Shown piece after piece: positions 3,053-40,610 of a stretch of 64,000 nucleotides of DNA. A program made the position numbers and the translations under genes. The first letter of the stretch is position 1, and each line of letters starts with the position of its first letter. The DNA comes from Petrosia ficiformis (taxonomy: Eukaryota > Porifera > Demospongiae > Haplosclerida > Petrosiidae). The DNA lies in assembly GCA_947044365.1 (NCBI GenBank), contig OX345636.1:24585466-24649465 (forward strand), given 5' to 3'. The notes under the pieces were generated by a model. That model did no database searches, was not told where the DNA came from, and was given only the letters and a program-made list of their open reading frames with translations.

Positions 3053-3330
3053 GGGTGTCTCCATTCACTGGACTGGACCACTGGACTGGACTACTGGACT
3101 GGATTACTGGACTGCAAATACGAGGGCGTTGTAATAAACCCGCCTACTAATTTATATAATAATTATTATAATTAATTTATAAATTATTTTTAATTAATGT
3201 GTAAATTTATAAAATAAATTGTGTGAGAGGGGTTCATAAGCAGAACTCTCGAAATGTACACGACCGACTCGTTTTGCTGGGAAGAAAAGTTGTTAATGAT
3301 AAAAATATCATGCTTCGTTAAATGCAGGAA
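3053..3330 (+). repeat. MULE left terminal inverted repeat
   Basis: About 278 bp, partner of 7412-7656. It opens with a minisatellite-like run of CACTGGACTGGA-type units, followed by AT-rich sequence and the shared block TCGAAATGTACACGACCGAC. The end of homology is at AATGCAGG. Confidence 0.85.
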
Positions 3331-3464
3331 GACAGCAAGGCGAGTGTATGGCATTCACATGCGGGCAACGCCCACATTTTTTTAAGTGTTCGCGCTGAAC
3401 GTATGTATAACTCACCTTGGCGACACTAGTTAATTATCGATTATTCTGGTTCTTCTCGTTCGTG

Positions 3465-6400
3465 ATGGCAGAGGTTAGTGTTGTGCTTTGCTTACTAATA
3501 TTTTATAATTGCAATACCTTTTCAGAGATCATTTGCTATAGAGCTATCAGACTCAGAACATAATTCTGACATTGATTTTGATGTTTCGCCAGATTCGTTT
3601 TTTGCTGAAACTGAGATAATAGAAATAAAAGAGTCCCCTCTTAAGTCCATGGAAGCACCCAAATATAAGTAAGTTTACAGTTTTGTAGTGACTTTCACAT
3701 TAATATAATTATAAATCTGATTGTTATATCTGCAGAGATGTAATAGAAATTGTAGACAGTCCTTTCAGTAGTAATGATACACCTGATACACCTGGACATT
3801 ACAGTGAGTTGTTTATGTTGATTTTATAAGTTTGTCAAATGCATCAAGAGAGCAAATGATCGATAATACATATGGAAGTATGCAAGCATGTTACAGTGTA
3901 CAAAGAGACATGACATGGACAGATTATATATATACAATTATATACAATATCATTATATATAATAATGACTACATACACAGAAATGTATGAAATGAATAAA
4001 GAGAATACATTAAGGTTATGCATGAGCAGGAAAGGTCACATGAATAGTTAAAGTCATGAATGCTTTGTTACAGTCCTACACAGTGCCTAAAATAACTTTA
4101 TTTTTAGTACTAGTCATACATGCTAGGCAAATAATTTGTACATGTCAGTCAGTCAGTGATAAGATAGTAGCCACTCTAAAGATACCATAGCCAAAAAATT
4201 ATGCTTTTGGGTATTAACATCCTATTTTAGGTACAGACCACAATTCACACACAGCACCATGCATGCATGACACATTTTTATTACTATTATAGGTGTTGAT
4301 TGTAGTGCCAAGAAAAAATTGAAATTTGATGATGATGATGATTCTGCTTAGCCTATTTATGAACATCCTCCAGATAAGTATTCTGCTGAAGAAATAATCA
4401 AGATTCTTCTAGATCCTCCTAAAGATAAGATCTGTTACGTAAAGCCAACATTAGTTACTAAAAGCGCAGCATACATTGTAGACACTAGTAGTCTTCATAA
4501 CCTTGAGGATATTAAAAAGGACAGCTATGGGATTTGGAAATACTCTGGCTCACATCCACAGACATTTAAAGTGTACACTGAGGATGATGGCTACAAAGTG
4601 ATAGAAAAGTGTAGCAAGGGTGCATCAGGAAGCAATGTTGTATACTTACGTCGCTTGCATTGTACTCACCCCTCAAACAGTGATTTCAAAAGACTCATTT
4701 GTTTCCTTTCAGGTACGGTCAAACAAATTAAAGTTATCTGTACTGACTATCTTTCACATATTTGTTATTCTTCACTGTAGATGCTGCAAATCATCCACAT
4801 CACTGTTGTCTAGTTGTATATCGCTTACCATCAGGCTTTGTACCCACTATTTCCAGTCATGGAAACGCAAAGGATAAAAAACCATTTTTTCCTACATGGC
4901 CAAGCACACGCAACTTAATTGAGAACCAGTGCTTGAAGAATGGTCCTAAAGCTACAATAGAGCATGTTTCATTACAAGTTGGAGGAATGCTAGAATCAGT
5001 TGCTCCAGGGCAACTTCCTAGAAGTGAAAAACAGGTGACAAATATTCGGAAAAAGGAGAAGATGAAAGGAAGATGTAATCATGCCAGTGGAAATGGTGCA
5101 GATGATCTATTTCTCATCATGCAAAAGGCCCATACAGAAGATCCATCATCACAGTTTATACGTGCAATCAGAACAGCTCCAGATCCAGCCATTGTGCTCT
5201 CAAGTGATTATCAAATAAATGATATGGTTCGTTTTTGTACTTCAACTGCAGACATTAGCATTCTAACAGTTGATCCAACATTTTCGCTTGGTGATTTTGA
5301 CATTACCCCAATGACATATCGACATCTGCTACTAGAGACAAAGCGAAGTAAAAAACATCCAATCTTCCTTGGTCCAACATTAATCCACTATAGGAAAACC
5401 TTTGGTGCCTATTTATTTTTTGCGTCAACATTGGTTGGAATGTCCCCAGAGCTACAAGGAGTCAGAGCATTTGGTACAGATGGAGAGCAGGCTCTAGCAC
5501 AAGCATTAGGACATGCTTTTCCCTTTTCAGAAAGATTATTGTGTTTCATTCATGCTAGACGGAACATAAAGGAGAGGTGTCGGGAGTTCTTTATTCCAAC
5601 TGACTTAAAACAGAAGATTATGAATGATGTATTTGGTTCTAAAGTCAACGATACATATATTGAAGGGCTAGTTGACGCTCAAGATGATGACGAGTTCCAG
5701 AGAAAACTTGATGCTGTAATGGAGTCATGGCAAGGCAACCCAGTTTCAAGTACTACTAAACTGGACAGCTTCATCAATTGGTTCAATGTGAACAAGTCCA
5801 GTGCAATTCGTAATTACATGTTGCGGCCCATTCGAGAGGAGTGTGGTTTAGGCTGTCCACCTGAACCATTCACTACAAATGCAAGTGAGAGTATCAATGC
5901 TGTTCTTAAGAACAAACTTGATTACCGAAGAAGTGAGCTCCCCAATTTTGTTGAGAAAATAAGCGAAGTAGTGAACGAACAGCAAAGGGAACTTGAACGT
6001 GCTGTTATAGGTAGGGGCAAGTACCAGTTACAGCAGCAGTACAAGTTTCTTGAAGTGCCGGAAAATAAATGGTTCCGAATGAGTCTGCAACAAAGGAAGG
6101 ATCATCTTTCAAAATTGCAGTCTGTCACCATTATAGATATAAATGGAATGGGAGAACTAGAATCTGCGACTAGTGCAGCAACCCCTTATGAAACAATTCC
6201 TTCAAAGTGCTCAATGTCAGACCTATCTGTTGATGTTGAGAATGCAGCAGCACAAGTAAATATTCCTTCACCAATACTTCAAGGAATCTGGGCTAAAGCT
6301 AGGACTCTTCTTTCTACAGATGGAGCAATTGCTTCAGCTCCTGGACAGTCTCCAGAAGCAAGGATGGTTCTCAGTTATAGAAAAAAGGTACCTCACATGG

Positions 6401-7221
6401 TAACACCAAGGAAGGGCAGTGATTTTAGCTGTGACTCAAGTTGTCCAAACTGGAAGTCATTGGGACTCTGCTCTCATTCCATTGCTGTAGCTGAACTGAA
6501 TGGTAAACTTTTGGAATTTATTTCTGCTAAGAAGAAAAAGAAGAGATTTCCTAATATCACCAGTCTTGTCACAACAGGCTTGCCAAAAGGTCGAGGTCGT
6601 AAAGGTGGAGTTGCTCCACGTGTGCGTAAACCATCTCGTGCTGTCACTACAAGGATTGAAATGAACATTCCTGAAACTTCCAGTACTAATCATATCGCTT
6701 CAGCACCAATGTCAGATATACATACTGTGCCACCACCACAGTTCTCGACTACACCCCAATTCTGTTCTTCCCCAGATAATTTTTATAGCAGTCATGGTTA
6801 TTATAATTGGGGAATGAGAAACAATGTGTTTCCGCAGTCCTCTTTCCAAATTCAACCTTCTTATGAACAACTGCAACCTCCTATTCCAGGATGTTATACT
6901 GTCCCATTTTCCTATTCACTGCACATCATTGGGGGGAATATCAGCACTTGTTTTGGTTGTAAAAATAAATATAACAAGTCATTAAAGCCCCCAAATGATT
7001 TGTGTATTAAAACTCAAGATTGGCGGGAATTCATTAGTCGAAATAGTGCAACACCGCAGTCAAGGTTTGGAAATGTATATTTTCATTGCAAACCTGAGTG
7101 TGTGTTGATGCGAAACCCTTCCTTTCTTCCATCTGATCTGAATGTTCCTGATGAAGTTGCAGAAAATCTAAATGACACACACAAGCAGTACTTGCTTGAT
7201 TTTTTTGGACTGCAAATTTAA
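3465..7221 (+). CDS. MULE transposase, five exons, interrupted by one in-frame TAG
   Basis: Proposed exons 3465-3473, 3526-3668, 3736-3803, 4293-4712 and 4781-7221 keep frame throughout with GT-AG introns (3081 nt in total). The N-terminus is acidic. A small domain near YGIWKYSGSHPQTF follows, then the MULE core with VDPTF (first Asp), FGTDGEQAL (second Asp) and NASESINAVLK (Glu region). Next comes a SWIM-like finger (FSCDSSCPNW then CSHSIAV), a basic KGRGRKGG stretch and a Ser/Pro/Gln-rich tail with more Cys. The protein should act in the nucleus, binding the element's TIRs and catalysing excision and insertion. The single lesion is TAG at 4349-4351, between the acidic leader and the body. 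A downstream start could still give most of the protein. Boundaries of the first tiny exon are the least certain. Confidence 0.8.
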
Positions 7222-7411
7222 CAATAGTTAACTTATTGATTATGTTTATGCTACTTATTCAACTAGTATTAAAACTTATAGTCTAGCACATTAATTTAAA
7301 TTGCGTAAGTATATATCCATGGCGATTATATAAACTCGGCTTGTTCCTAATCTCGCGTAGGCAGACCCACCCTCTGCGTAGGTCTGGCTATGCGAGATTA
7401 CCTTGCTCCTA

Positions 7412-7656
7412 TCCTGCATTTAACAAGGCATGATATTTTTATCATTAACAACTTTTTTTCCCAGCAAAACAAGTCGGTCGTGTACATTTCGAGAGTTCTG
7501 CTTATGAATCCATTTTATTCAGACATTAAAAATAAATTATAAATTAATTATATATAAATTAGTAGGCGTGTTTATTACAACGCCCTCGTATTTAAAGTCC
7601 AGTAATCCAGTCCAGTAGTCCAGTCCAGTAGTCCAGTCCAGTGAATGGAGACACCC
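7412..7656 (-). repeat. MULE right terminal inverted repeat
   Basis: Inverted partner of 3053-3330, about 245 bp, ending in tandem CCAGTCCAGTAGT units and ACACCC. It is slightly shorter than the left arm because of indels in the AT-rich part. Confidence 0.85.
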
Positions 7657-12599: not shown

Positions 12600-12930
12600 C
12601 ATGTGGAATTTTTTTTATTTCAAAAATGCAGGCTAATCCTTCGATCTCTGAGAGTACGAGATGCGAAGCATATCGGGTTTTCTGCCTCATCGGGTAAACA
12701 TTGAGCAAGAACTGCTCCAATTCCATAATTCAAAGCATCACACGCTAGGATTAATCTGAGAGAGGGATCAAAATGGAGCAATAGTTTTGATGACATCAAT
12801 AATTTTTTGGAGTTTTGGAACATTTGACAAATTTGGTCAAAATCTGCTATAGTGTGACAGCAGTCCCAAATATGATATTAATTGAGTCACATGTTTGGGG
12901 TTAGGGGCATCTTGAATAGCCTGTACCATA
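12600..12930 (-). pseudogene. Ty3/gypsy pol, RNase H part (left half of a split element)
   Basis: From the insertion edge the minus strand reads VQAIQDAPNPKHVTQL, SYLGLLSHYSRF, then LHFDPSLRLILACDALNYGI and GAVLAQCLP, ending FASRTLRD. This is the RT-to-RNase H region of a Ty3/gypsy polymerase, including the first RNase H Asp. A stop and frame slips show it is decayed. It continues directly from the RT part at 16771-17330 once the DUF7869 element is removed. Confidence 0.85.
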
Positions 12931-12970
12931 TGTGACCGTCTACGCGAAAACCAGGCTAAAGTAACAAATT
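12931..12970 (+). repeat. left 40-bp TIR of the DUF7869 transposon
   Basis: TGTGACCGTCTACGCGAAAA followed by CCAGGCTAAAGTAACAAATT, perfectly inverted at 16731-16770. Confidence 0.95.
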
Positions 12971-13251
12971 ATTTTACCGAGTAAATATCTATAAAAAAAA
13001 AGGAAAATGTGCATATTTTTACGATCACATTTTTTTTGTATAATATTAATCTATGTTACCTTAGCTAACTGTGAGAAATGTTTAAGGATCCAACTGCCAG
13101 TAGTTTTACCAGGGCAAGCATTTAAGCTGAGCACCATCGTTTCTCCATTTTAAGGCACGGAATGTAACACGAATTGTAACAGCGAATGTAAACGGAGTCG
13201 ACGCTTCACCCCTAGCAACAACCATAGCGACGCGTCTTTTTATGCACAATA

Positions 13252-16034
13252 ATGGCCTCAAGGAATTTATCCAGTTCTTTTGCGGACTCTTTAAACAGCT
13301 TTTTTAAAAGCTCTCTCTCATCTGCTGACCAGGCTCAGTTGTCAGAAGTCTTTCTGGACTACTTAGGCGATGAAGAAACAAATGAAAGGTAAGTACAATA
13401 AATATATTCATACTGATAAATTTAAATAAATTTACATAATGTTTATTAAAATAGAATTTAGTGATGATGACTTAAGCAGTGATGATACTGGAGGCAATTC
13501 AGAAGAGTTAGATGTACCTGGAGAAGTAGAAATAGACTTTGATGATGATATAGGAAGAGTGGTGATGGCTGACACAGATAATGATGATATACCAAGAGTG
13601 GTGATAGATGACACAGATAATGATGATATAGGAAGAGTGGTGATAGCTGACACAGTTATTAATGAAGAAGAAACATCAATGAGCGGCATTGGAGAAACAC
13701 ACATAGGCTATGAGATTGTATCAATAGAAGAATGTGATTTAGACTAGAATGAGAATCAAAAAATTACAGATTTTATGGGTACTGGATGTGGATGTACAGT
13801 GAATAAAGGAAAACCTTGTTTCGACCAGTTCAACGAAACCCACTATAGTACTATGCGTAACAACTGTGCCGAGCTTGATCACAATTCTCTTGACATAGTC
13901 ATCATATCTCAAATTATGGCTAATACCAACATATCAGAATTCCTAGAGATAAGAGGAAGAAAGCATCAACGGCAGAATTATAGGACAACATTTTATCACC
14001 TCTCAAGAAAGGTAAGTAGAAAGTAACCATAATGTTGTCATATAATACATTGCTGGTATAATCGAATCTTTTAGATTTGTAAGAAAACTTTTCTCTTTCT
14101 GCATGGCATTGGAAAATGGCGATTTGAAGCATTAAAAACTAGTTTCCTTAAAGATGGACTTATACCTAGGTAAGTGCACGAAATTTTTTACTTCAAACAC
14201 TTGCTATTTGGATATTTTTTATAATAAAAAAAATAAATCACGCCATCCAGTCGCTATTTATTATTAATTTATTATACTCACTCCTTGCAGAACTCATGGA
14301 AATACTCACAGACAGCCACATAATGCTATCAGTGTTAATGATGTACAACATGTTAAGTCATTTATAACTAACTATGCTGAGGAGAGAATGCTATTTCTCT
14401 CCCAGGACGTATACCTGGTTATAAAGACTATAGATTTGAATTACTGCCATCAAGCAACTCTAAACACTCTATTCATAACCTCTACCAGATGGCTACAGCC
14501 AAAACAGTTCTATGGCCAGTTGCTTACAGTACATTCTGTGCTCTATGGAATAAATATGTGCCATACATTGTAGTTGCAAAACCCAGAACTGATCTCTGTT
14601 GGCAATGTATGAAAAATAACAACAATATTATTAAAAGTAGAAACTTTTCAGAGGAATTTAGATCACAGGTAAAGTGCACCCATTTTAATATTCCTTTATA
14701 CATGATACTGACATACAGGTATATGAGAGGGCAATTAAACACATAGAACAAGCAAAAACAGAGAGAGACTATTATAGATCTGTATGCAAGTCATCAAGTG
14801 ACTCACTAAAAAGCACTTTATCCAGGGATGACTACACCTCCTCCTGATTGCAGTATCACTCCTGTCTCAAACCAATACATTATTCATTTGATTTTGCTCA
14901 GCAGGTAAGTTACAATGTTTGATGAGAATTAGTTATTTACCTTTTTTCCATATTTCAGATCCACTTTCCTTCTAACCCTCTCCAGCCTGGACCAATGTAC
15001 TTTTTGGCTCCCAGAAAATGTACAATATTTGGAGTATGCTGTGAAGCCATACCCCGCCAAATCAACTTTTTGATAGATGAGGCAGTAGATAATGGAAAAG
15101 GTGGTAATGTAGTATCCAGTATGCTGCACTATTTTTTTGAGCATCATGGATTAGGTTAGACACACCCATCTATCGAAACATTATACTCCTGTACTATAGG
15201 AGAGACAGATGTGCATTTGCATGCTGATAACTGCTGTGGGCAGAATAAAAACCACCATGTGATTCAAGTATGTTCACTTCTAAGTGACAACATAATTATT
15301 TACAGCTTATTTTACATACTTTAGTACTTTATGTGGAGAGTCCAGAAGGGGTTACATCATTCCATTACTTATTCATTTTTACCAGTTGGTCATACAAAGT
15401 TTTCACCAGACTGGTGTTTTGGCTTGCTAAAACAGAAGCTTCGAAGATCTAAAGTGGACTGTATGGAAGACATAGTCAAAGTGGTGGAGAAATCAGCCAA
15501 TGTAAATTGTGCACAGCAAGTTGGAACCCAGTCTGGTGAGATCATTGTGCCAACATACAACTGGCAAGGTTTACTCTCTCCCTTCTTCAAACGAATCCCA
15601 TCTATAACAAAATTCCACCAATTTAAAATAACTAAGAATGACAATGGAAATGTTAATCTAACTGTCAGAAAACATCCTACACAACCGAAACAACAGTTGA
15701 CATATTGAAAAGTACATGTACATCTATACCAACAAACTTACCAGAAATTATTGAACCAAAAGGATTAAGTCTGGATAGGCAGTGGTACTTACATGATAAG
15801 ATTCGGCAGTTTTGCTCAGATGACTGTAAAGATTTAGTATGTCCAAAACCATCAAATCCACCTCTTCGAATTCTTCCACCTTTGCTACAGTCATCACCCA
15901 GTAGATCTGTAATGGATTCAGATACAGAATTGGAAGATGAGCCGCAGCCAAAACGAGAAAGATGTGCTATGAAATGTGGTAACTGTGGGCAAACTGGGCA
16001 CAACAAACGCACTTGCCCAACTAATAACATCTAA
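13252..16034 (+). pseudogene. DUF7869-type transposon protein, eight exons, few lesions
   Basis: Exons by GT-AG and phase: 13252-13388, 13462-14011, 14075-14169, 14291-14668, 14719-14904, 14959-15154, 15200-15267 and 15325-16034. The N-terminus is Ser-rich then acidic, with three 39-bp (13-aa) tandem units around NDDIPRVVIDDT. A Cys block follows (GTGCGCTVNKGKPCFDQF, NNCAELDHNSLD), then ICKKTFLFLHGIG, a DLCWQCMKN block, and the conserved core FGVCCEAIPRQINFLIDEAV, HADNCCGQNKN and VGHTKFSPDWCFGL, which I associate with DUF7869. It ends in a CCHC knuckle, CGNCGQTGHNKRTC. Lesions: TAG at 13745-13747, a 2-nt slip in TTTCTCTCCC near 14397, TGA at 14845-14847, and a frameshift near 15700. It presumably acts on the TIRs; that role and the Asp in HADNCCGQ being catalytic are inferred. 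Confidence 0.8.
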
Positions 16035-16730
16035 TAACTTCTTACCAACAAAAGATTTCACCTTTCTTTTATTTTGTTTTTGAAACGGTTTTTTTAAAAG
16101 CCACCCAATGTTCATAAGATTTCCCTTTACAGTAAACAGTCAAAGTCTCTGCATATGCACCACGACAAGGTATCAGCAAGTATAATACTTAGCACATAAA
16201 CAATTTCCCTTATCTTGACTAAGCTAAAAATACTATAAAAAATACTAACCTTAACACAAATTCACTTCTTTTACAGTAGTAAGAAAGAATGATTATCTCC
16301 TGGAATTACCTATAAAAATTGATGAAGTTGTTTGATAGTAACATTTTAAAACGGTAACAAAAAAACAATCAAGTCTTAAAAACTTACCTGTAATAGTGTT
16401 TCTTGCTCCACTCTCAACTTTATGCTCTAAAGTACAAACTAGATGGCTGTTATAGTGACAAAAAAAAGCGAACTATAGTAAGAACGCCATATTCACCTTT
16501 TCTTTGGTTCTTTGATGACATCATTTGTGATCACGTGCGCTACCGTGAACAGAATGTACGGAATGTAATAATTGTAATTAAAACGTCAATTTCTGCATTT
16601 TAACAAATGGCATTGCTGCCACTTTGACAGCGCACAAATCAGGAGTGAGTTACCCCAACGAGGAACTGATTACATTTTCTGAATGCTACAGAGTCAAAGA
16701 ATCTAGGTAGGTTAAAAAGTGGATTTTCAA

Positions 16731-16770
16731 AATTTGTTACTTTAGCCTGGTTTTCGCGTAGACGGTCACA
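16731..16770 (-). repeat. right 40-bp TIR of the DUF7869 transposon
   Basis: Exact inverse of 12931-12970. Confidence 0.95.
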
Positions 16771-17330
16771 TATATGAGACTGATTTAGTCATGAAGGAAC
16801 ATTTCTCCTTCCATTCATTTGAGCACTGTCTCTAATGATTCTAAATGATCTTCATCTGTCTTGCCAGTGACTAAGACATCATCAATATAAACAACAACTG
16901 CTGGGATATCTTATAGAAGTCCTTCCATTACTCGTTGAAATACTGCTGGGTGCCGAGGAGATGCCAAAAGGCAGTCTGGTATACTCAAAGAGTCACTTAT
17001 GTTTATTTATAATGGTAAATTGTCTTGATGATTCGTCTAGTTCGACTTCTTGGTACGCTTGGCGTATGTCTAATTTACTAAATGTTTAACCTCCTCCTTG
17101 AGTAGCTTCTATACGAGGGATAGGATAATGATCAAATTTTGCCACACGATTTACGGTGGTGACCACAGATTCTTACGGAACAGTCCTGTTTCAGTACAGG
17201 TGCAATTGGAGTGGCCTACTCTGAGGTTTTAAAATTCCCTATGACAGTAATTCTTCTATCTTTACTTTCATTGAGTAAGGAACAGTGCGTGCTTTAAAGA
17301 ACTTTGAAGTAGCATCGGAATCAACATGTA
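16771..17330 (-). pseudogene. Ty3/gypsy reverse transcriptase (right half of a split element)
   Basis: Minus-strand reading gives TPIAPVLKQD, VRICGHHRKS, FSKLDIRQAYQEVELDE, TRLPFGISSAP, then VVVYIDDVLVTGK with the YIDD active site. These are RT motifs of Ty3/gypsy pol. Several stops and frame slips are present. The reading resumes at 12930 beyond the inserted transposon. Confidence 0.85.
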
Positions 17331-38885: not shown

Positions 38886-40610
38886 TTGTGTTGCTGTTTA
38901 CTGTACTTAGATGAAAATGAAGTAGAAGATGAAGCTATGGTTACTGAAATTGACCAGTGTGTTGTAGATATCGAAGCTGATAAGAAAGACGAAAAGGAAA
39001 TGGAAGATTTTATGAGAGAAGGGTGTGGTTGTAAAGTATTACATGGCTCACCTTGTTTTACACAATTCCCAGCATCCCATTATCAGGAAATGAGAAACTA
39101 TTGTGCTGAGCTTGATCGTGATGCACTTGATCTCGTTGTGATGGGACAAATAATGGCTTTCACCAGTACTTCCAAGGGAAGGAGAACCAAAAGAAAGAAG
39201 TGTAAAGTATAATTTTGCCATTTATCTCTGAAAGTAAACTATCATACTATCTATACAAGAGAAACTATAATTATACCCTGCTTCACCATCAGGTATGCAA
39301 GAAGACATTCTTATTCCTACATAGCATGGGGAAAAGCCACCTCAACAATGGCCTAGTACTCAGGTAAACTTCATATCATTACAAATGGAATTTTTTACAA
39401 CAATCTAATTTTCGTTTACATGTACAACACATGGCAACTCACATTCTCAGCCACACAATGCACTTAGAGCAAATGATGGGGAAATTATGAAGAATTTCCT
39501 GTCAAACTATGCGGAACAGAATGTTGTACGAAAAGAGGTATTTAGGAGTGTTATAAAGATGCTTCTGAGGGAACATCTGTTCGGGTGATGTAATATAGCT
39601 CACTATGTAAATTATGGAAGAGATATGTGATTTATATTGTAGTTGCCAAGCCAAAATCTGATCTCTGCTGGCAATGCATGAAGAACAATTCTGCAATAGC
39701 CAGGCCTTTCAAATCTCACTGAAGTATAAAAAAACAGATGTATGTTAGTACAATTAGTACTCATGTAAGATTTACATTTATTCATTTCCTAAATGCCTAC
39801 CTGAAAGCCATTAATCATCTAAAACTACTGAAAGAGAACACTACAGAAGTCTCTGCCAAGATGCTTCAGGGGCCTTGCAGTCATTATTTACAATGACAAC
39901 ACATTTAATCCTCCCCTTGTTACTACCTCAGCAGCCCCTCTTTCTCTTATCGCCACTGTGCATTAATTACTCTTTTGACTATGCACAAGAAGTAAGATTC
40001 AATTTGAGGACTAATTATACAAAAATACACATCTCATTATAGGTACACTATCCCTGGAACCCATTCCAGCCGGGCCCCATATCCTCACTTCGAGAAAATG
40101 TAAAACGTAATTAAATGTATTGCCACTTCCTCCATACATGAAGGTGCGAGGGATGTACTCTCTTAAATGCTGACAATTGCTGTGGTCGAAATAAGAATAA
40201 CTATGTGATGCAGGTTGCTAATTTTTTTGATGTGCTAAATTGTTGAAATATTTTTCCCATTATTCGCAGTATTTCATGTGGAGGGTTGCAGTGGGCTTAC
40301 ATTGCTCCATTACCTACTCCTTTCTACCCGTTGGTCATACCAAATTCAGTCCTGACTGGTGTTTTGACCTCATAAAACAAAAGCTAAGGAAGACCAGGGT
40401 TTGGCTGTCTCCAAGATCTGGTCAATGTTGTCGATACATCTGTTGAAGTCAACCATTCTCAACTTGTTGGAACCCAGAATGGAGACGTCATTGTCCCCAC
40501 ATATGACTGGTCAGGAGCACTATCACCATGCTTTAGAAGATTGCCAAACATCAAAAGATGCCATTACATTAGAATTGACCCCATTAATTACACTACTATC
40601 TTGTAATCAT
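38886..40610 (+). pseudogene. second DUF7869-type gene copy, degenerate
   Basis: Blocks match the 13252-16034 gene in order: KEMEDFMREGCGCKVLHG and YCAELDRDALDLVVMGQI (38960-39150), VCKKTFLFLHSMGK (39295), NSHSQPHNALRAND-like text (39430), VIYIVVAKPKSDLCWQCMKN (39630), YPWNPFQPGPI (40050), NADNCCGRNKNNYVMQ (40170) and ITYSFLPVGHTKFSPDWCF (40310). Many frameshifts and stops are present and the first exon and C-terminal knuckle are not found. No TGTGACCG terminus occurs nearby, so it is truncated or from a subfamily with other ends. Confidence 0.8.

Follow-up and report, generated by a model that had tools for sequence, protein, structure and literature searches.

A 64,000-nucleotide stretch of the genome of the sponge Petrosia ficiformis (contig OX345636.1, positions 24,585,466 to 24,649,465; this whole stretch is called the window below) raises the question of what kind of transposon lies at its positions 12931-16770, and whether the single gene found there is the one that moves it. 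The unit is a complete DNA transposon of 3.8 kb with one gene of eight exons, whose product carries DUF7869 (PF25273), and the original prediction had proposed that this protein is the transposase of a candidate undescribed superfamily. We find that the protein is very probably a transposase, and that the element is most likely of the Sola2 type, to which it was matched by described features, not by Sola2 protein sequences. What probably exists, then, is a Sola2-type family of cut-and-paste DNA transposons with DUF7869 as a DDD transposase, AWWT-type targets and a bacterial branch.

The element and its gene

The terminal inverted repeats are identical at 40 of 40 positions (43/43 when the flanking bases are included), and TA stands on both sides, inside ATAT. 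A second full copy (copy 2, C1:40689440-40693303; 98% to the window copy) and parts of others were found in the genome. Exon borders in the window were set by comparison with copy 2, and the splice sites, then checked in the window itself, fit. Splicing of copy 2 yields an open frame of 776 amino acids in eight exons, and everything foreseen for the protein is present in it: the acidic repeated leader, the Cys blocks, the HADNCCGQNKN core and a C-terminal CCHC knuckle. Pfam recognises this reconstructed protein as DUF7869 (E 9.2e-23). The description "complete transposon" fits the ends and the gene structure, but not the gene of the window copy, which is interrupted by an in-frame stop and carries small indels at several places, so that this copy is at present non-autonomous. 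That the unit is mobile is borne out by its ends and TA flanks, by further copies with the same ends, and by empty sites for five other copies (see below).

DUF7869 as the probable transposase

Two lines of evidence make DUF7869 very probably the transposase, namely an RNase H fold with a DDD triad and one terminal signature found in 11 families. An RNase H fold with D/D/E had been suggested as a structural check, and it was looked for in L066, a locus of the same genome with an open single-exon frame of 654 amino acids. The predicted model of this protein has the RNase H order, its best fold matches include Mos1, and its triad is D-D-D. The three residues (D341, D420 and D462; D448, D527 and D569 in copy 2 numbering) are invariant in all 13 members of alignment A4, and the second and third are spaced by 41 residues (DD41D).

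In this genome PF25273 has 110 matching stretches, some genes being in several pieces (137 of 137 candidates were scored). Inverted ends were sought at 30 loci, several of which overlap, and at five (L056, L060, L061, L066 and L069) the gene lies between long ones that start with TGTG and end with CACA; L060 and L061 are one family. With L061 left out as a repeat of L060, 11 families carrying the DUF7869 protein, five from this genome and six bacterial, share the terminal signature TGnG-N12-AAAA. In their 22 ends, TG occupies positions 1-2 in 100%, G occupies position 4 in 95% and A occupies positions 17-20 in 95-100%, while at positions 5-16 no single base exceeds 64%. Base-shuffled loci gave none in 150 comparable pairs.

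One may also consider that DUF7869 is a passenger and that the repeats belong to another transposon, since the 27 two-ended copies examined include 24 short ones without the gene. Yet in the six bacterial elements ends of the same signature enclose this one long open reading frame. The gene is likewise enclosed in five families of this genome whose terminal repeat sequences differ, and the protein has a catalytic fold and triad. Because the signature is kept over the distance between bacteria and eukaryotes, a passenger role is most improbable, and we rejected it.

Bacterial relatives

When one genome of each GTDB species was scanned, 34 pattern matches came up, of which 11 are relatives, their best segments being 30-42% identical. 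Going by record titles, they come mainly from Desulfobacterales and other Deltaproteobacteria, with further ones in Thiomargarita, a Legionellales metagenome-assembled genome, Nitrospirales, Verrucomicrobia and Anaerolineales; at least one is in a named isolate, Desulfocicer vacuolatum DSM 3385. At all four loci checked the neighbouring genes are bacterial (sigma-54 regulator, GAF, PAS/kinase, CheR, DnaJ). Inverted ends of the form TGG..CCA surround one long open reading frame (635-668 codons from stop to stop) at six of the 11 loci (L094-L098 and L102); no convincing end pair was found at L099-L101 and L103, and the fragment L104 lay outside the end search. Such relatives are rare: within the Desulfobacteria class, 389 genomes yielded 11 with a match, five of these 11 being seeds, and in two phyla 1/337 and 1/398 genomes matched, both seeds. 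An NCBIfam scan of one bacterial protein gave no meaningful match.

In the tree, bacterial and eukaryotic rows interleave with four label changes, at least two of them forced by well supported branches, and counts no higher than this came from 20 and 23 of 500 label shuffles; with such long branches, the deep order is not reliable. As it stands, the tree allows several passages between the domains, which it neither dates nor directs.

Some details of these loci may be added. L095 (2862-4979), L096, L098 and L102 have good inverted ends and unequal flanking dinucleotides, and the right side of both L098 and L102 continues with TTTGTAAT. Two frames with DUF7869, of 731 and 659 amino acids (L120 and L117), are found in genomes of the Desulfobacteria class and may be contamination; L120 clusters with the eukaryotic L057 type.

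Copies, target sites and empty sites

A search for other copies with the same ends, proposed along with the prediction, was made with the 26-base terminus (at most three mismatches) and gave 71 occurrences per strand, 142 ends in total, in the 191-Mb genome, as against none for the reversed terminus used as a control. We took 30 sequences of the window's family, 29 of them fetched in addition to the window copy, and dropped three that showed one end only (L032, L033 and L037). Short derivatives prevail among the 27 two-ended copies that remain: 24 are 361-428 bp long, one has 918 bp and two are full length.

The flanks of these copies follow the pattern A-NN-[TG...CA]-NN-T, with A three bases before the first TG and T three bases after the last CA in 27/27. 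The two bases between match in 25 copies, and TA is the commonest pair (17 TA, 6 TT, 1 CA, 1 TG). If the T of TG and the A of CA are instead assigned to the target, four flanking bases are identical in 24 of the 27 (17 ATAT, 5 ATTT, 1 ACAT and 1 ATGT) and unequal in L074, L075 and L085. The predicted TA duplication is therefore right as regards the TA flanks, while TA alone does not describe the target: a 2-bp and a 4-bp (ANNT) duplication fit equally and are indistinguishable while the A and T are constant, and it is because these two bases are nearly constant that the 2-bp reading formally remains. The central dinucleotides are unequal in four of the six bacterial elements and in L060, L074 and L075, where the outer A and T hold; possible causes are a genuine peculiarity of the joining step, joins made in assembly, or copies recombining with one another.

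For an empty-site test 26 joins were made (L038 was not joined), 22 of which went into one query, four being left out as low-complexity. As 40 of 3,836 candidates were scored, the number of matched joins is a lower bound: at least five of the 22 (L034, L036, L085, L087 and L088) match insert-free places with no gap across the joint, L088 doing so at 100% in at least 11 places, and the empty site of L087 sits within a tandem repeat. These five ungapped empty sites prove simple insertion, which the window site alone does not. There the element sits in a gypsy pol, whose reading phases on the two sides agree across the insert (frames assigned by eye), as had been predicted. The clean empty site that the prediction implied had to be rejected, since in two gypsy relatives free of the insert the stretch between the flanks is longer by about 45 and 44 bp, an excess computed from match coordinates on the assumption that the left flank has no other gap. 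This gap probably lies at the joint, because the left flank aligns to 13 further gypsy copies with no more than a single gapped base until five bases short of the joint. As to the host gypsy itself, relatives on contigs C6, C8 and C10-C15 of the assembly lie roughly 20-85 kb from contig starts or, on C6, C10 and C11, whose lengths are known, from contig ends, as if it were a subtelomeric repeat.

Proposed mechanism and meaning

For a cut-and-paste cycle, these observations provide the ends of the element, its target and the duplication, the short derivatives, a predicted fold and a triad without variation. The N-terminal half of the protein, with its conserved Cys residues, would recognise the TGnG/AAAA terminal repeats, and the RNase H core, judging from its fold and the invariance of its three aspartates, would cut and join the DNA. 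The protein would excise the element and insert it at A-NN-T sites, mostly AWWT, duplicating four bases. The short derivatives of about 424 bp, having the same ends, are probably moved in trans, and the bacterial elements with the same protein and signature would be the prokaryotic branch of the same group.

No mention of DUF7869, PF25273 or the entry names tried was found in the literature searched. A Pfam domain of unknown function would hereby gain a mechanism, as very probably the core of a DDD transposase, and searches for autonomous and short elements, bacteria included, can use TGnG-N12-AAAA with AWWT flanks as their rule. The signature unites bacterial and eukaryotic elements; if the Sola2 assignment holds, no new kind of transposon is added.

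Features of the window and other DUF7869 lineages

Features of the transposon at window positions 12931-16770
Feature	Position	Strand	Remarks
Left terminal inverted repeat	12931..12970	+	Starts TGTGACCG; AAAA at positions 17-20
Right terminal inverted repeat	16731..16770	-	40/40 match to left repeat
Left target duplication	12928..12931	.	4-bp ATAT; 2-bp reading is TA at 12929-12930
Right target duplication	16770..16773	.	4-bp ATAT; 2-bp reading is TA at 16771-16772
Exon 1 of the transposase gene	13252..13388	+	By comparison with copy 2
Exon 2	13455..14011	+	Acidic repeated leader, first Cys block; in-frame stop of the window copy
Exon 3	14075..14169	+	
Exon 4	14291..14668	+	CxxC (DLCWQC) before the catalytic core; frameshift in the window copy
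Exon 5	14719..14904	+	First putative catalytic D, codon 14890-14892, in SFDFAQQ; indels in the window copy
Exon 6	14959..15154	+	RNase H core strands 2-3 and helix 1, by homology to L066
Exon 7	15200..15267	+	Second putative catalytic D, codon 15226-15228, in HADNCCGQNKN
Exon 8	15325..16034	+	Third putative catalytic D, codon 15409-15411, in GHTKFSPD; CCHC knuckle 15975-16016; stop

The window holds a second DUF7869 gene at 39003-40603, heavily broken; its exon order is similar, part of its DNA is 67% identical, and a TGnG/AAAA end pair was looked for around it and not found. A further transposon-like unit at 3053-7656 has inverted-repeat arms of 115 and 111 nucleotides (92-93%) with ACTGGACTGG repeats, which enclose an open frame of 824 amino acids that matches Pfam only weakly, to MULE (E 0.056). 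Elsewhere in the genome, another DUF7869 lineage is present in five copies (L043-L047, on C1 at 4.12, 22.88, 49.36, 58.12 and 62.27 Mb) that are at least 99.9% alike over 3.3 kb. Two of them, compared further, show a unit of more than 5.9 kb with one boundary reading ...CTGTTA instead of CACA, so that this lineage appears to be young, with different ends. Yet another lineage (L040) carries GHTHEDIDQ.

Comparison with known superfamilies

The proposal of an undescribed superfamily was demoted to a rival once the flanks proved to be ANNT, since AWWT is printed for Sola2 in the part of PMC3627910 consulted, which gives AT-rich 4-bp duplications (ATAT, AAAT, ATTT) for the Sola2 elements of amoebozoans. 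A DDD triad and 4-bp duplications are likewise described for Sola in an excerpt of PMC10741241, and the element thus probably belongs to a known superfamily after all.

Several observations, besides the extra bases in the two gypsy relatives, weigh against the reading as a whole. The folded protein is that of L066, a relative 38% identical to the copy 2 protein (243/643 columns) and not the window's own. The ends of the families outside the window were placed at TG inside longer inverted arms, which makes the TG partly a matter of construction, though the constant spacing to AAAA is not. Four identical flanking bases occur in only two of the six bacterial elements and in three of five loci of four further families of this genome, and L095 has perfect inverted ends (26/26) and yet flanks AAAT/ATTT. 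Finally, the likeness to Sola2 is one of printed features, and the terminal repeats have 40 bp here as against the 12-21 bp given for amoebozoan Sola2 in the same excerpt of PMC3627910.

Could the group be a superfamily apart from Sola2, spanning bacteria and eukaryotes, with TGnG...AAAA ends and a 2-bp duplication, mostly TA, in an A-NN-T target? The 2-bp reading accounts for 25 of the 27 copies, L069 and L085 fit 2 bp and not 4 bp, and no other transposase family reached the Pfam cut-off in scans of these proteins; the unequal flanking dinucleotides of the bacterial copies would then hint at an unusual joining step. The mismatches of L069 and L085 can, however, be single point changes, and the 4-bp reading is the AWWT of Sola2, with the triad and spread also as described for Sola, so that we consider a separate superfamily unlikely.

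Still less probable is a divergent relative of IS630-Tc1-mariner (ITm) or of Zator/ISAzo13 (PF07592). The group resembles ITm in having TA as the commonest central dinucleotide, an RNase H DDE/D core with DD41D spacing, and Mos1 among the top fold matches, although this fold is common to DDE/D cores in general. Unlike ITm, insertion is not TA-strict, eight of the 25 matching pairs being TT, CA or TG, on which ground ITm was rejected, and no ITm Pfam model is among the matches listed up to E 1. Zator/ISAzo13 shows a weak profile similarity over the D2-D3 region, with DDE_Tnp_ISAZ013 matching three of 13 members below the curated cut-off (best E 0.018) and copy 2 far below it (E 0.052); the 3-bp duplication printed for Zator in an excerpt of PMC10045372 is absent here.

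PlavakaA, of the CMCT group (EnSpm/Mirage/Chapaev/Transib/Plavaka), shares TGT...ACA termini and 2-bp duplications according to the section of PMC12730594 consulted. Passages of that paper and of PMC9587614 give C(2)C and H(3-4)H between the second D and the last E for CMCT, and C/DxxH between the second D and the last acidic residue for hAT/P/MuDR/Kolobok/Dada. By eye in A4, neither C(2)C nor H(3-4)H was seen in the 41 residues between D2 and D3, nor a conserved C/DxxH between D420 and D462.

It is with Sola2 that most features agree, as far as the excerpts describe it: a DDD transposase with an RNase H core, 4-bp AT-rich duplications, here mostly AWWT among the 24 copies with identical flanks, and variable lengths of the terminal repeats (11-1124 bp for Sola in PMC10741241). 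Six eukaryotic superfamilies with prokaryotic partners are listed in part of PMC5718144, Sola not being among those named there. The excerpt of PMC10741241 places Sola in bacteria and metazoans, and the DUF7869 elements are found in 11 bacterial loci and, with introns, in a eukaryotic host.
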